From: a virus
IMG/VR virus record: IMGVR_UViG_3300025127_000177
Span: 1-29,631 of that record
DNA: 29,631 nucleotides
Direction: 5' to 3' (one strand)
Positions 3,501-18,622 of this stretch are shown piece by piece. Below the pieces are notes generated by a model, which saw only the letters and a program-made list of their open reading frames with translations, had not been told where the DNA came from and did not search any database. The position numbers and the translations under genes are program-made. Numbering within the stretch: the stretch's first letter is position 1; each line of letters opens with the position of its first letter.

Positions 3501-3692
3501 ATGACCGTAGTAGTTGAAGAAAGAGGTCGTATGAACCTTTTTGCAAAAGAACCCCCAATTGAAATTATGGACGTGACTGAAACACACAATGAAAAAGCCG
3601 AAAGGCTGAACGGACGACTGGCAATGATTGGTGTCATTGCTGCACTGGGAGCATATGCGCTTACTGGACAGATTATTCCTGGTGTCTGGTAA
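3501..3692 (+). CDS. hli: high-light-inducible protein (Hli, LHC-like one-helix protein)
   Basis: A 63-aa thylakoid protein of the Hlip/SCP family, which binds chlorophyll and carotenoid and protects photosystem II during high light and infection. The family signature is visible as AERLNGRLAMIGVIAALGAY (residues about 34-53), containing the ExxNGRxAMxG chlorophyll-binding motif at the start of one transmembrane helix. The C-terminal TGQIIPGVW is typical of phage and marine cyanobacterial Hlips. The N-terminal 30 residues are polar. The stop overlaps the endonuclease ATG (TAATG). It sits in the replication block, more than 10 kb from psbA, whereas in P-SSP7 hli lies beside psbA near the capsid gene (recalled). 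Confidence 0.95.
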   Translation: MTVVVEERGRMNLFAKEPPIEIMDVTETHNEKAERLNGRLAMIGVIAALGAYALTGQIIPGVW

Positions 3693-13222: not shown

Positions 13223-13976
13223 TCCCACTCCTGCTGATCAGCCTGAATTCAATGAAGCTGAGCAAGAAGCTCTAGCTATTGGTGAACAGGCTGAAGCAGA
13301 TCAGCAACAGATGCTGGCAGGTAAGTTTAAAGATGCTGAGGCATTAGAGCAAGCTTACATTGAACTACAAAAGAAACTAGGTGAAAACGATGGCGAAGAA
13401 GTGCGGGACGAAACGTCCTCCGAAGAAGTAAACGAAGAAGAAGCAGAGGTATCACCTGCTCAATCATTAATTACTGAAGCAACTACTATGTATGCAGAGT
13501 CTGGTGAACTAACACCAGAGGTACTAGAAAAGTTTAACTCTATGTCTAGTACAGATCTTGTGAATGCTTACATGGAGATGCAAGGCAATCTACCAACAGC
13601 AGCTTCACCTGATTTATCTGAATCAGAAGTAAATCAAATTAAGAATACTGCTGGTGGTGAAGAAGGTTATAACCAATTGATGGCGTGGTCTGGAGAGAAT
13701 CTAGACCCGTCTGATGTTGAAGCCTTTGACCAACTTGTCGAGAGTGGTAACTCACGTCTTATCAGGTTGGCAGTATCTGGACTTAAAGCTGAGATGGAGA
13801 AGTCAGTTGGATTTGAAGGGAACATGGTCACTGGTCGTGCGCCCTTCCAACCAGCTGATGTATTCCGCAGTCAGGCAGAAGTTGTAGAAGCTATGTCTGA
13901 CCCTCGTTATGACAGAGACCCTGCTTATAGGAATGATGTATTCCAAAAACTTGATCGTTCTAATTTAGAATACTAA
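13203..13976 (+). CDS. scaffolding protein (T7 gp9-like)
   Basis: A 257-aa, strongly acidic, helical protein that guides procapsid assembly and then leaves the shell. The N-terminal half is rich in Glu, Gln and Ala (EAEQEALAIGEQAEADQQQ), with KFKDAEALEQAYIELQKKLG, a motif seen in many T7-like and lambda-like scaffold proteins. The C-terminus carries RFDRDP-like content (DPRYDRDPAYRNDVFQKL), the usual capsid-binding end. T7 gp9 is 307 aa. It sits between portal and the capsid region. The stop overlaps the next ATG (TAATG). Confidence 0.92.
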   Translation: MATLTYDPTPADQPEFNEAEQEALAIGEQAEADQQQMLAGKFKDAEALEQAYIELQKKLGENDGEEVRDETSSEEVNEEEAEVSPAQSLITEATTMYAESGELTPEVLEKFNSMSSTDLVNAYMEMQGNLPTAASPDLSESEVNQIKNTAGGEEGYNQLMAWSGENLDPSDVEAFDQLVESGNSRLIRLAVSGLKAEMEKSVGFEGNMVTGRAPFQPADVFRSQAEVVEAMSDPRYDRDPAYRNDVFQKLDRSNLEY

Positions 13977-14215
13977 TGGCTAATAATGTAAGCCTCAAGA
14001 TGGGTACTCATAAGTCACGATCTGGAGGGCTTACAGCCAAAGGTCGTGCAAAGTACAACAAGGCAACAGGATCAAATCTAAAACCACCACAACCACAAGG
14101 AGGACCACGTAAACGGTCCTTCTGTGCCCGGATGGGTGGTGTAAAAGGACCAATGAAAAAACCAAATGGCAAGCCAACCAGAAAGGCACTTGCTCTACGT
14201 AAATGGAAATGTTAA
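13976..14215 (+). CDS. small basic protein (DUF6321-like)
   Basis: A 79-aa, Lys/Arg/Gly-rich protein. Blocks visible are GGLTAKGRAKYNKATGSNLK, then GPRKRSFCARMGGVKG, and a C-terminal ALRKWKC. This arrangement matches small proteins common in marine phages that I recall as DUF6321. It has two Cys and no membrane segment. Encoded between scaffold and capsid, it may bind DNA or assist packaging, but no function is established to my knowledge. Confidence 0.85.
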   Translation: MANNVSLKMGTHKSRSGGLTAKGRAKYNKATGSNLKPPQPQGGPRKRSFCARMGGVKGPMKKPNGKPTRKALALRKWKC

Positions 14216-14411: not shown

Positions 14412-15485
14412 ATGACCGCAGTTCTACAACAACGGAAGTCCCAATGGGATTACTTCTGTGAGTGGGTGACGTCCACAAATAACCGTCTATACGTAGGGTG
14501 GTTTGGTGTCCTGATGGTGCCATGTCTGCTCGCCGCTACAACCTGTTTTATTATCGCATTTATTGCAGCTCCCCCAGTTGATATCGATGGAATCAGAGAA
14601 CCAGTCGCAGGATCATTGCTCTACGGCAACAACATTATCTCTGGTGCAGTCGTGCCCTCTAGCAACGCTATTGGATTGCACTTCTATCCAATCTGGGAAG
14701 CAGGCTCCCTCGACGAATGGCTCTACAACGGTGGTCCCTACCAACTGGTTGTGTTCCACTTCCTTGTCGGTATCTTCTCTTACATGGGACGAGAATGGGA
14801 ACTTAGTTATCGACTAGGTATGCGTCCCTGGATCTTTGTTGCTTACTCAGCTCCTGTAGCTGCAGCAACAGCAGTGTTCTTGGTCTATCCCTTTGGTCAA
14901 GGGTCCTTCTCTGATGGTATGCCACTTGGTATCTCTGGTACCTTTAACTTCATGCTTGTCTTCCAAGCTGAGCACAACATCTTGATGCATCCATTTCATA
15001 TGATGGGTGTAGCTGGTGTATTTGGTGGAGCATTGTTCTCTGCTATGCACGGCAGCCTTGTTACGAGTTCCCTTGTTAGGGAAACCACTGAGACGGAATC
15101 TCACAACAACGGGTATAAGTTTGGACAAGAAGAAGAGACGTATAACATCGTCGCAGCCCATGGTTACTTCGGACGTTTAATCTTTCAATATGCGAGCTTC
15201 AATAATTCTCGTAGTCTTCATTTCTTGCTTGCTGCTTTCCCAGTCATTGGCATCTGGTTTACCAGTCTGGGAGTTTCTACGATGGCATTTAACTTGAATG
15301 GTTTTAACTTTAACCAATCTATTATTGAGAATCACGGTCATGTAGTTAATACTTGGGCTGATATTCTGAATCGTGCCAACCTTGGCATGGAAGTCATGCA
15401 TGAACGAAATGCACATAACTTCCCACTGGATCTTGCTACTACCAGTACCAATCAAGTAGCACTAACAACTCCCTTAATTGGATAA
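14412..15485 (+). CDS. psbA: photosystem II D1 protein
   Basis: A 357-aa complete D1 core subunit that binds the reaction-centre chlorophylls, QB and the Mn cluster; the phage copy replaces host D1 that is photodamaged during infection. It has five transmembrane helices, TyrZ in [11 protein letters not shown], the MHPFH histidine region, the QB loop ([20 protein letters not shown]) and the C-terminal [13 protein letters not shown] followed by a 15-aa tail to be cut by CtpA. Residue 128, equivalent to position 130, is Glu (MGREWELS), the high-light type. It lies between scaffold and capsid genes, the usual cyanopodovirus place, and was acquired from the host lineage. Confidence 0.99.
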
Positions 15486-15488
15486 TAG

Positions 15489-16709
15489 ATGACTATTGAT
15501 CACAGAAAGGTGGTAGCTTTAGCCACATATGAATCTCCGTTTGTAAAACGGATTAATAATATTGACGATTATCAAGTTACCACCACTGTGACTCGATTTA
15601 CAAAAAGTGTTTGGTTAGAAAATCAGACTGATATTAGCTACAATATTGCGATTGCAAGTGATGGAGTTTCGTTTACCTTGAGGTCAACTGGAACAGTGAA
15701 CTACACTGTTGATTGGGGCGACGGTAATTCTGAAACAAGCACTTCCAATACGCTTGCTCATACTTATGCGTCCTCAGGTGCATATACGGTTAAAATAACC
15801 TCTAACTCTGATACTTATCGCCCGTACTATAACAATAGCGGCGACGAAGATCAAATTACATCGATTGTAGTAGGTACTGATGATTCTTCAATATTTAGTA
15901 ATAGCCTTTTAACTGCCTTTAATGGTGCACAGAACATGACCAATTACAGTCAATGGCGTTCCGCAAGTTCTGCTGTAACTGTTTTTAGAGATACTTGGAA
16001 AAATTGTTCTGGACTTACATCCTTTCCATTAATCGATACATCAAGTGGAATTGATTTTCTAAGTACTTGGCAATTTTGTTCTGGACTTACTGGGTCATTT
16101 CCTTTGATTGATACTTCAAACGGAACTGATTTCGGATCTACTTGGAATGGTTGTTCTGGAATTACGACTTTCCCTGCATTGAATACATCAAGTGGAACTC
16201 TTTTCATTTATACTTGGTTTAATTGCTCTGGACTTACATCGTTCCCTTCAATTAATTCATCAAGTGGAACTAATTTTAATGGTGCTTGGAGAAATTGTAC
16301 TGGACTTACATCATTCCCAATAATCGATACATCAAGTGGGACTAATTTTTCATCCACTTGGCATGGTTGTTCTGGTCTTACGTCATTCCCATCTATTAAT
16401 CTATCAAGCGCAACTACATTTGATTCTGCTTGGAGAAATTGTACTTCGCTTACAACATTCCCTTCAAATCAATTTGACACGACTGCTAATCTTACAGCGA
16501 TGGCTTTCCATAATGCATTTACAAATTGTGCTTTGACCACACAGTCTATTGAAAATATTCTGACATCTTTAGATACTAATGGTCAATCTAATATCACCTT
16601 GTCTCTTTCTTCTGGTACGAATGCTGGTAAAACAACTTGGACCAGTGCCGCAAATACCGCTTACAATAACCTTGTAGCTAAAGGTTGGACAATCACCTAC
16701 AACAACTAA
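15489..16709 (+). CDS. PKD-domain and BspA/DUF285-like repeat protein
   Basis: A 406-aa protein starting 3 nt after the psbA stop. Residues about 58-106 resemble a PKD fold (VDWGDGNSETS, then AHTYASSGAYTVKI). Residues about 169-330 are seven repeats of 24-25 aa with consensus TWxNCSGLTSFPxIDTSSGT, like the BspA-type leucine-rich repeats found on bacterial surfaces. The C-terminus (SIENILTSLDTNG, then AYNNLVAKGWTITYNN) is the usual end of such proteins. There is no signal peptide and no transmembrane helix. It could be a virion surface, adhesion or decoration protein, or act inside the host. The low-complexity AT-rich DNA suggests separate acquisition. No standard T7 homologue is known to me. 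Confidence 0.88.
   Translation: MTIDHRKVVALATYESPFVKRINNIDDYQVTTTVTRFTKSVWLENQTDISYNIAIASDGVSFTLRSTGTVNYTVDWGDGNSETSTSNTLAHTYASSGAYTVKITSNSDTYRPYYNNSGDEDQITSIVVGTDDSSIFSNSLLTAFNGAQNMTNYSQWRSASSAVTVFRDTWKNCSGLTSFPLIDTSSGIDFLSTWQFCSGLTGSFPLIDTSNGTDFGSTWNGCSGITTFPALNTSSGTLFIYTWFNCSGLTSFPSINSSSGTNFNGAWRNCTGLTSFPIIDTSSGTNFSSTWHGCSGLTSFPSINLSSATTFDSAWRNCTSLTTFPSNQFDTTANLTAMAFHNAFTNCALTTQSIENILTSLDTNGQSNITLSLSSGTNAGKTTWTSAANTAYNNLVAKGWTITYNN
15993..16499 (+). repeat. seven tandem 72-75 nt repeats inside the BspA-like gene
   Basis: Repeat units begin at 15993, 16065, 16140, 16212, 16284, 16356 and 16428. The period is 72 nt except one 75-nt unit carrying an extra Gly codon. CTGGACTTACATC and TCAAGTGGAACT recur almost unchanged, and GCTTGGAGAAATTGTACT occurs in both the fifth and seventh units. 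High DNA-level similarity points to recent duplication or slippage, always in whole codons. Confidence 0.85.
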
Positions 16710-16713
16710 TTCC

Positions 16714-16902
16714 ATGAGCAATACTGTTTACTACGTATGTCACGGACCCGAGGTTGTGCACCTAGTTGAAGTTTACGGTAATTCAACAGTGACCAGTGGT
16801 CAACCTAACATCGAACAATTTGATACTATTGAAGAAGCCTTAGCTCTGGCTATTGAATTTGGCTATGAGCAAGATAAATCAGATCTTGAAGCTCAAGCCT
16901 AA
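16714..16902 (+). CDS. small hypothetical protein
   Basis: A 62-aa acidic protein starting 4 nt after the repeat-protein stop. It reads as a compact alpha/beta fold: two beta strands (TVYYVCHGPEVVHLVEVYG) and a helical, acidic C-terminus (EEALALAIEFGYEQDKSDLE). It is unrecognised. The arrangement of strands followed by an EEA-type helix recalls small phage inhibitor-like proteins, but no motif supports a specific role. Confidence 0.7.
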   Translation: MSNTVYYVCHGPEVVHLVEVYGNSTVTSGQPNIEQFDTIEEALALAIEFGYEQDKSDLEAQA

Positions 16903-16946: not shown

Positions 16947-17096
16947 ATGCCTTATACAGGACTCACAGTTGAATATGCAGTAAGTACAACAGGTGATCGA
17001 CTTTTTATTCCAGTTAATGCACCTGAAGCTACAACAGCTGAGCAACGTGCTCAATGTGAAAAACTTTCACCGGATGGAGTGGAGAGTGTAGTGTAA
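16947..17096 (+). CDS. small hypothetical protein
   Basis: A 49-aa product with a proper ribosome site, GGAG at 16936-16939, 7 nt before the ATG, which is stronger than at most genes here. The sequence opens PYTGLTVEYAVSTTGDRLFI and ends in an acidic, Gln-containing helix and VESVV. It has one Cys and no known motif. The good ribosome site is the main reason to accept it. Confidence 0.65.
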   Translation: MPYTGLTVEYAVSTTGDRLFIPVNAPEATTAEQRAQCEKLSPDGVESVV

Positions 17097-17130: not shown

Positions 17131-17295
17131 ATGTGGGACATTCAATGTACAACTGATGCTGCTATTATTATACGTGATGCTTTGCGTCTGTATAAAGAAC
17201 GTTGGGCAGGTGGTCACCCATCTGAACAAGAAGCTATAGCACATCTAGAATATCAATTCAATAAGTTAGTACTTGAGTCCACATTAGACGCATAA
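17131..17295 (+). CDS. small hypothetical protein
   Basis: A 54-aa helical protein, MWDIQCTTDAAIIIRDALRL at the start, then YKERWAGGHPSEQEAIAHLE. It lies between other tiny genes with about 35 nt of spacer on either side. Composition (Trp, Cys, mixed charges, no low complexity) is protein-like. No Shine-Dalgarno is visible. The function is unknown. Confidence 0.65.
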   Translation: MWDIQCTTDAAIIIRDALRLYKERWAGGHPSEQEAIAHLEYQFNKLVLESTLDA

Positions 17296-17602: not shown

Positions 17603-18622
17603 ATGGCTAATACTACTATTACTCCAATTGGTTCGATTAACTCGAACCCGTCAACCATTGGGCTTACCCAGGGTGGCGCTAACTATGATGCCAAGTATGC
17701 AACTTACCTGAAGCTATTTTCTGGTGAGATGATCAAAGCTTACGAGTCTGCCTGTATCGCTAAAGGTACAGTTCAGTCACGTACTCTTCGTAATGGCAAG
17801 AGTCTTCAGTTCATCTACACAGGACGAATGGAAGCTGGATATCACACACCTGGCACACCGATCCTTGGATCTGGTGATCCTCCGGTGGCAGAGAAGACCA
17901 TCGTGATGGATGACCTGCTGGTCTCCAGTGCATTTTTGTACGATCTCGATGAGACACTTGCGCATTACTCCCTTAGGTCTGAAATCTCTGCAAAGATCGG
18001 TCATGCTCTGGCTGAAGCTTATGACAAGAAGATCTTCCGAATGATCGCTAAGGCTGCTCGTGAAGCACATCCTATTACTGCATCACCTGGTCCCGAACCC
18101 GGCGGTTCAGTCATCAGCCTCGGCTCAGGTAATGCGTACAACGCTCAAGCACTTGTAGACGCTTTCTTTGAAGCCGCTGCAATCCTCGATGAGAAGAACG
18201 TACCTACCTCTGGTCGTTTCGCCGTTCTGGCTCCACGTCAGTACTACGCTCTGATTTCTCAGGTTGACACAAACATACTTAACCGTGACTTCGGCGCCTC
18301 ACAGGGCAGCATGAACAGTGGTGAAGGTCTCTATGAGATCGCTGGTATCTCTATCCGTCGTTCTAACAACCTGCCTTTCCTTGCTGGTTCTGTTAGCCGT
18401 GTTGATGGTGAGAACAATGACTACTCTGGTGACTTCACTAATCACGCTGGTTTGATTTACATGCGTGATGCTGCTGCTGTTGTCGAAGGTATTGGACCTC
18501 AAGTACAAACAACAGGTGCTGATGTTAAGACCATGTACCAAGGTGATGTCATCGTTGGACGTCTTGCCATGGGTGCTGGCACACTTAACCCTGCTGCTGC
18601 TATCGAACTGCAAGCTGCCTGA
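17603..18622 (+). CDS. major capsid protein (T7 gp10A-like)
   Basis: A 339-aa HK97-fold shell protein, close to T7 gp10A (345). It shows AKYATYLKLFSGEMIKAYE (like T7 ALFLKVFGGEVLTAF), RNGKSLQFIYTGRMEAGYHT, the DDLLVSSAFLYDLDETLAHY segment (like the T7 GLLTADVLIYDIEDAMNHYD region) and the C-terminal VIVGRLAMGAGTLNPAAAIE (like T7 IIAKYAMGHGGLRPEAAG). It is followed after 21 nt by a small gene and then a strong terminator, as T7 gene 10 is followed by its terminator. There is no sign of a 10B-type frameshift extension. Confidence 0.96.
   Translation: MANTTITPIGSINSNPSTIGLTQGGANYDAKYATYLKLFSGEMIKAYESACIAKGTVQSRTLRNGKSLQFIYTGRMEAGYHTPGTPILGSGDPPVAEKTIVMDDLLVSSAFLYDLDETLAHYSLRSEISAKIGHALAEAYDKKIFRMIAKAAREAHPITASPGPEPGGSVISLGSGNAYNAQALVDAFFEAAAILDEKNVPTSGRFAVLAPRQYYALISQVDTNILNRDFGASQGSMNSGEGLYEIAGISIRRSNNLPFLAGSVSRVDGENNDYSGDFTNHAGLIYMRDAAAVVEGIGPQVQTTGADVKTMYQGDVIVGRLAMGAGTLNPAAAIELQAA

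Follow-up and report, generated by a model that had tools for sequence, protein, structure and literature searches.

The window, that is, the whole stretch of 29,631 nt of viral DNA analysed here, carries the photosystem II D1 gene psbA (14412..15485, plus strand; Pfam Photo_RC, 302 bits) and, directly behind it, an ATG-started ORF of 406 aa (15489..16709, plus strand). To the left of this ORF are the genes for the portal protein (by similarity to S-CBP3), the scaffold, two small proteins and PsbA. To its right are three small plus-strand ORFs of 62 aa (16714..16902), 49 aa (16947..17096) and 54 aa (17131..17295), followed by the gene of the major capsid protein (MCP; 17603..18622, plus strand; PHROG 267), the right-hand neighbour of the cassette described below. 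The 62-aa product, referred to as o62, carries a YYVCHGPxxVH motif and is linked to BspA-type payloads. The 49-aa ORF belongs to a small family located in the psbA-MCP interval of several relatives, and the 54-aa ORF, weakly matching PHROG 628 (unknown function), lies before the MCP gene in several relatives. Among the best 80 of 407 loci retrieved with the capsid protein, the window MCP reaches up to 96% identity to other viral contigs and 94% identity to the capsid protein of psbA-carrying contigs. Elsewhere in the window, a DUF6321 gene (PF19846, 89 bits) at 13976-14215 recurs near the cassette in L005, L097, L099, L108, L126 and L135, and an hli gene (PHROG 178) at 3501-3692, far from psbA, is flanked by putative ssDNA-binding protein and endonuclease ORFs.

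The psbA junction and the 406-aa protein

The stop codon of psbA (15483-15485) is separated from the ATG of the 406-aa ORF by the triplet TAG (15486-15488), in agreement with the 3-nt distance given in the initial annotation. The psbA gene ends in ATT GGA TAA, with GGA preceding the next start codon. Of 58 sequences (the window and 57 relatives), 52 have a PsbA whose last residues before the stop are Ile-Gly, and in the six sequences with a long gene 0-3 nt after psbA the end is always ATT GGA TAA (15477-15488 of the window included). This constancy suggests that the D1 tail may supply a ribosome-binding GGA for the next gene, and the 406-aa ORF is probably translated together with psbA, a coupling that we infer from the sequence. 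RNA folding at the junction gave nothing special (z -1.08), and promoter and terminator consensus scans gave nothing decisive.

The description of the product as a PKD plus BspA-like repeat protein is borne out. A PKD domain exceeds the Pfam cut-offs at residues 60-109 (PKD_4, 31.1 bits against 27; PKD, 25.5 against 23.5), and the Ig-like domain as a whole, at about residues 50-105 (15636..15803, plus strand), appears as strands in the AlphaFold model. Behind it lies an array of 24-aa BspA-type LRR units (15983..16473, plus strand), in which Tandem Repeats Finder detects a 72-bp unit in 6.8 copies with 68% matches; the lag-24 self-identity of the protein is 0.42, the maximum of 2000 shuffles being 0.19. 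Seven W..C..LTSFP-like units can be recognised, their starts spanning residues 170-315. The C-terminal cap (about residues 346-406; 16524..16706, plus strand) consists of helices and short strands in the model and stands out in the alignment as conserved through the family.

The AlphaFold model, built with 25 sequences, has a mean pLDDT of 84, with residues 1-46 below 50, and lays out the strands at about 50-105, then the repeat region, then two helices and short strands at the end. Upon re-alignment of the model to the PDB, LRR proteins ranked top, with 7crb at Z 19.7 (292 residues, rmsd 3.9) and 4fs7, an example of the BspA-family fold, at Z 19.2 (283 residues, rmsd 3.5); in a plain Foldseek search against the PDB the LRR matches were weak (best E 0.009). 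The plant LRR protein 7crb, which is also the best PDB sequence match, is taken to reflect a shared LRR fold, not function. In the viral library, the best match is the 'PKD domain-containing protein' of S-SKS1 (E 1e-28). Pfam LRR_5 and DUF285 found no match in the window protein; each matches just one of the 25 aligned members at E <= 0.01, and the S-CBWM1 homologue reaches 26.7 bits for DUF285 (cut-off 25), with a sub-cut-off LRR_5 match. NCBIfam returned sub-cut-off matches alone, the better of which falls on the PKD part, and PADLOC gave a weak match for the LRR protein (E 0.0063). Because of the 24-aa repeats, the AlphaFold model and its alignment to LRR proteins, the product is, by repeat and predicted fold, an LRR protein outside Pfam LRR_5 and DUF285; the structural model had been proposed as a check in the initial annotation. 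The protein resembles the BspA-family LRR surface proteins in its short W..C..L repeats and in its modelled LRR solenoid, whereas it differs from them in that a phage encodes it, in its PKD domain and short phage anchor, and in lacking the LRR_5 and DUF285 matches.

The BspA proteins of L094 and L096 agree at all 252 of their 252 aligned residues, while their repeat numbers are exactly two 24-aa units apart; that of L090 is one unit away from each of them. Whole repeat units are thus gained and lost. In L005:1-3300, a single open frame of 1099 aa contains two consecutive PKD-LRR-cap units, and L102 starts with the end of an apparently similar tandem.

A shared N-terminus and exchangeable payloads

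Among the best 80 of 407 capsid-query loci, 57 include the end of psbA as well as the capsid gene (58 when the window is counted). In five of these 57 a long adhesin-like gene starts 0-3 nt after psbA: the genes are of lectin type in L169 (598 aa) and L176 (456 aa) and of unknown payload type in L167 (362 aa) and L214 (263 aa), while L186 has a 150-aa collagen protein and, behind it, a 611-aa collagen-like protein. The other 52 loci show no ORF of more than 250 aa starting directly after psbA. A survey of relatives for presence and repeat number, also proposed earlier, thus finds a gene in this slot in a minority of the surveyed loci and a repeat number that differs by whole units.

In L169 and L176, the gene lying 3 nt after psbA starts with the same ~46 residues as the window protein (residues 1-46; 15489..15626, plus strand), with 73% and 53% identity to the window over 51 columns, respectively, and continues as a lectin-like protein. 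A conserved N-terminal module with an exchangeable distal payload is therefore seen in three known members, the window, L169 and L176. The L169 payload matches PHROG 5939, 'tail protein', with CBM_4_9 just above its cut-off, and the L176 payload has a sub-cut-off laminin-G match. A scan of viral contigs with this N-terminal anchor confirmed two of 101 pattern matches, which are L169 and L176, and the search of annotated phages for anchor homologues returned nothing below E 2.

At identical anchor residues, the same codon is used in 30 of 37 cases between the window and L169, as compared with 150 of 296 in psbA (p 0.0004), in 22 of 27 between the window and L176 (143 of 289 in psbA; p 0.002), and in 17 of 25 between L169 and L176 (138 of 295 in psbA; p 0.06). 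The nucleotide identity of anchor codons 1-43 between the window and L169 (0.868) is not higher than that of the best 43-codon stretch of psbA (0.899). The codon likeness fits a recent exchange or a recombination site but is not proof of either.

The closest full-length relatives in annotated phages have other N-termini or settings. A tblastn search returned 33 records, with coverage above 80% in S-SKS1 and S-CBWM1 alone (two records each); the PKD protein of S-SKS1 (SWZG_00142) is 49% and gp93 of S-CBWM1 41% identical to the window protein. SWZG_00142 is, like the window protein, a PKD homologue with an adjacent o62 gene, but S-SKS1 is T4-like by its annotated genes, its o62 gene lies upstream, and its N-terminus is different and lacks the window anchor. 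S-CBWM1 gp93 has neither an o62 match nor the window anchor.

The initial annotation placed the ORF among host-derived accessory genes, a view that the relatives do not favour: those found are on phage contigs, and many of them adjoin fibre-like or head genes. In pattern-limited scans of a genome collection, none of 11 pattern matches was confirmed by the o62 alignment, and three of 60 were confirmed by the BspA alignment, all three in MAG contigs without a cyanobacterial name. One of the three also proved to contain an o62-like gene, which means that the genome scan can miss such genes. That contig, L224, is binned as a Euryarchaeota MAG and contains a BspA gene, the o62-like gene (BspA query; E 6e-19, beside the BspA gene) and, by eye, a terminase-like ORF; with this phage-like content, it may come from a phage and have been misbinned.

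An effector acting inside the infected cell or on the host surface, an accessory gene like psbA that would, for example, modify the infected cell, would suit the position 3 nt after psbA with its likely translational coupling, and the patchy presence of long adhesin-like genes there (five of 57 relatives among the best 80 of 407 loci). We nevertheless regard such a role as quite improbable. The 406-aa protein contains no strongly hydrophobic stretch (highest 19-aa mean, 0.89), good host homologues were not found in the pattern-limited genome scans, and the payload is common to fibre-region genes and is found fused to lectin parts. The ORF is instead probably one half of a phage cassette, as judged from the gene content around its relatives, and not a lone host-derived gene.

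Small putative partner genes linked to the payload

A profile scan of viral contigs with o62, which was pattern-based, gave 36 loci with 21 distinct cores (IMG/VR is redundant). In 34 of the 36, a BspA-type gene lies on the same strand within 174 bp of o62; in L095 and L117, which make up the remainder, o62 lies at the end of the contig. In addition, an o62-like gene was found in L207 (capsid query; E 6e-14), with the sequence just before it encoding a BspA C-terminal cap. The pair is present in contigs of T7-like as well as T4-like type, in either gene order and among head or tail genes: BspA precedes o62 in T7-like contigs and some others, and o62 precedes BspA in S-SKS1 and its relatives. 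In L134 and L139 BspA comes first and o62 second, ahead of the prohead protease gene, apparently at the same locus as in the S-SKS1 type. Among annotated phages, S-SKS1 alone has o62, and our partial search of the literature on cyanophage BspA proteins found no description of the BspA/o62 pair.

Behind the lectin-type payloads of L169 and L176 stands another small gene, P123 (113 and 120 aa), which matches PHROG 18574 (L169 copy, 7e-19; L092 copy, 4e-5). A P123 scan gave at least 35 loci; in 32 of the 35 listed, a lectin-type gene lies within 1.5 kb, and in 31 it is directly upstream, the loci without a nearby lectin gene (L244, L253 and L254) being at contig ends or on a short stretch. In the isolate S-TIM54, a protein 79.5% identical to the L169 P123 over 112 aa is encoded directly behind a 1026-aa 'virion structural protein' (deposited annotation), which consists of lectin modules with a different N-terminus. 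A relationship between the two partner families was rejected, hhalign giving a probability of 4.9% for o62 and P123.

To compare payload and partner, we tabulated those non-redundant adhesins that have 700 bp or more of 3' flank and left out genes with less. Redundancy was judged on identical last 150 residues, so that close relatives such as L097 and L098 are counted twice. The 85 BspA-only genes comprise 20 with o62, two with P123, three with both and 60 with neither; the lectin-only genes comprise 23 with P123, none with o62 and 24 with neither; and the four lectin-BspA fusions comprise two with both, one with P123 and one with none. For genes with exactly one partner, the counts (BspA/o62, 20; BspA/P123, 2; lectin/o62, 0; lectin/P123, 23) give a Fisher p of 7e-11, a test in which related sequences are treated as independent, so that p is uncorrected for relatedness. 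Loci fetched via a partner are over-represented for that partner, the lectin profile was seeded from three proteins, and the underlying scans were pattern-based, covering the best 80 of 98 loci in the wide BspA scan and the best 80 of 407 in the capsid scan.

The lectin-BspA fusions of L119, L120 and L232 (identical to one another) and of L231 are followed by both partners, that of L239 by P123 alone and that of L136 by none according to the cut-off; in L138 and L140 the contig is cut before the partner position. L092 and L125 begin with the end of a lectin part and have both partners; the table files L092 as BspA/P123, the o62 ORF start being outside the distance rule, and L125 as BspA-only with both partners. 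The exceptions are S-CBWM1, whose BspA gene is accompanied by a P123-like partner but by neither o62 nor a detected lectin part, and L097/L098, in which both partners are present and a lectin part was not detected. With 60 of 85 BspA-only genes having neither partner, a partner is not needed by all; 51 of these 60 come from the wide BspA scan (best 80 of 98 loci), and the closer BspA set contains six genes without and four with a partner. According to these sequence comparisons, the small gene co-varies with the payload, the exceptions being S-CBWM1, L097/L098, L239 and the many partnerless BspA genes.

Other small genes were noted beside adhesins. Genes of ~50-125 aa also stand behind distant BspA genes in L009, L010, L047, L065, L080 and L136, that of L136 being a weak o62 relative (E 6.5e-6). 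A gene of ~69 aa precedes adhesins that share a similar 'M.xHxN..TGK' N-terminus (L093:4403-4612, L119, L138 and L262:2709-2918); it was found in podovirus contigs and, by eye, in S-TIM54, and it may be the anchor-side counterpart of the partner gene.

The o62 product itself is predicted to fold as beta-beta-beta-alpha with a low-confidence tail helix (pLDDT 79). Neither Pfam nor PHROG gave a convincing match for its family (best weak E values, 0.023 and 0.029), and in the PDB Foldseek gave nothing better than E 1.3 and VIA-align a best Z of 3.2. Its distribution would fit a payload-specific partner, most likely an assembly chaperone or a cap for the LRR payload. Modular receptor-binding proteins with a cognate fibre chaperone are described for the Alteromonas phages A5 and V22, and are reported to be common to distant phages (PMC10579305); in a cyanophage, the myocyanophage Pam3, gp24 and gp25 are reported as such a pair (PMC9608196). 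The present cassette is similar to such systems in that host-recognition genes occur across distant phage families with a companion gene matched to the distal part, and differs from them in its LRR/PKD payload in place of a trimeric fibre, in its psbA-MCP location, and in a partner of 62 aa for which no chaperone homology was found.

It is also possible, and we hold this tentatively, that o62 is a separate small protein (a virion tip subunit, an inhibitor or an anti-defence protein) that is merely co-inherited. This would be in line with the invariant C-H-G residues in the o62 alignment and with the fold matches returned for o62, among which there is no chaperone. However, the payload-matched distribution, together with a different small gene at the same place for lectin payloads, argues for a payload-specific partner, and PADLOC, whose library holds defence and not counter-defence proteins, gave no match for o62 or P123.

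A putative virion adhesin and its site on the particle

We consider it likely, with a probability of about 0.7, that the ORF at 15489..16709 encodes a modular virion adhesin, consisting of anchor, PKD spacer, LRR binding part and cap, and that o62 is its payload-matched assembly partner, as deduced from gene comparisons and the predicted fold. The shared N-terminal module of ~46 residues would attach the adhesin to the particle, the PKD domain would act as a spacer, the BspA-type solenoid with its variable number of 24-aa units would offer the binding surface for a ligand, and the conserved C-terminal part would cap the solenoid. Recombination behind the anchor may replace a payload and its partner gene together, with the psbA-to-capsid interval as the adhesin slot. 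Surface binding was one of the options of the initial annotation, and a surface-binding role on the virion appears to be the best reading. That annotation is on the whole partly supported; the partner gene at 16714-16902 and the exchangeable N-terminus were absent from it.

On the virion, the putative adhesin may sit on the capsid, the neck or the tail. In podovirus-like contigs, the BspA gene or cassette lies between scaffold/hli and capsid genes, for example in L086, L092, L093, L119 and L120, or near tail-fibre, lysozyme or maturase genes (L121, L124, L126, L131 and L135). In T4-like contigs, it is flanked by capsid-assembly and prohead protease genes, or comes after neck-type genes or a long fibre-like protein. 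A phage-tail-lysozyme-like protein (Pfam, L093 copy) is among the neighbours in L086, L093 and L119. The BspA payload thus adjoins fibre, lysozyme, neck, portal or capsid genes, varying by contig; the earlier statement that the gene is outside the tail-fibre region holds for the window but not for the relatives near tail-fibre, lysozyme and maturase genes.

The PKD domain has an Ig-like fold. A Hoc-like capsid decoration, in which the anchor would sit on capsomers and a PKD-LRR arm would project from the head and tether the virion to particles or to the envelope of the host, a role apart from that of the main receptor-binding fibre, is a possibility to be entertained with reserve. It would suit the gene position between scaffold/psbA and MCP in the window, between capsid-assembly and prohead protease genes in S-SKS1 and before the portal gene in L101. 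Ig-like decoration proteins are reported for T4, T5 and N4, and the window protein is similar to Hoc, T5 pb10 and the N4 protein in its Ig-like domain and in a gene near capsid genes, but unlike them it has an LRR solenoid and no recognised capsid-binding domain. A decoration role is less easily reconciled with the relatives in tail-fibre and lysozyme regions and near neck genes, or with payloads fused to lectin parts that match a PHROG labelled 'tail protein'. PMC10575957 describes the capsids of P-SSP7 and P-SCSP1u, phages that may or may not carry this gene, as having no decoration protein, and Syn5 as having knob- and horn-like capsid proteins.

An accessory tail or neck adhesin, that is, a second receptor-binding protein that is carried by the portal-tail complex but expressed from the head module, seems possible but somewhat doubtful. 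Tail-fibre matches are nearby in L121, L124, L126 and L131, with lysozyme in L124 and L131, and in L004 and L006 a long protein with tail-fibre PHROG matches is encoded immediately before the gene. However, the 406-aa ORF sits far from the fibre position known from S-CBP3, and the Phage_T7_tail N-domain (PF03906) finds no match in the window protein, whereas the S-CBP3 tail fibre matches at 1.5e-18 in the same scan. With this diagnostic N-domain absent, the window protein is not a fibre of the T7 gp17 type. It has no counterpart among the standard T7 genes, consistent with the earlier remark that no standard T7-like function is known for it. For the proposed adhesin we lean slightly towards the head, because the gene sits beside capsid genes.

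T7-like phages are usually described as recognising their hosts via one type of tail fibre. A wider interpretation, rather unlikely in its entirety, is that the interval behind psbA would be a dedicated, expression-coupled adhesin slot in cyanopodoviruses, in which heads (LRR, lectin, collagen-like and others) are swapped at a nucleotide-conserved anchor, each with its partner; o62 would then found a new family of assembly factors for LRR payloads, and an adhesin on the capsid would form a second, fast-evolving attachment system. The o62 family is a new chaperone candidate, and the association of payload and partner offers a simple way to annotate 'hypothetical' small genes beside phage adhesins. 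If these phages do have a second adhesin locus, linked to psbA and the capsid genes, cyanopodovirus genomes would have to be read differently for host range and particle attachment.
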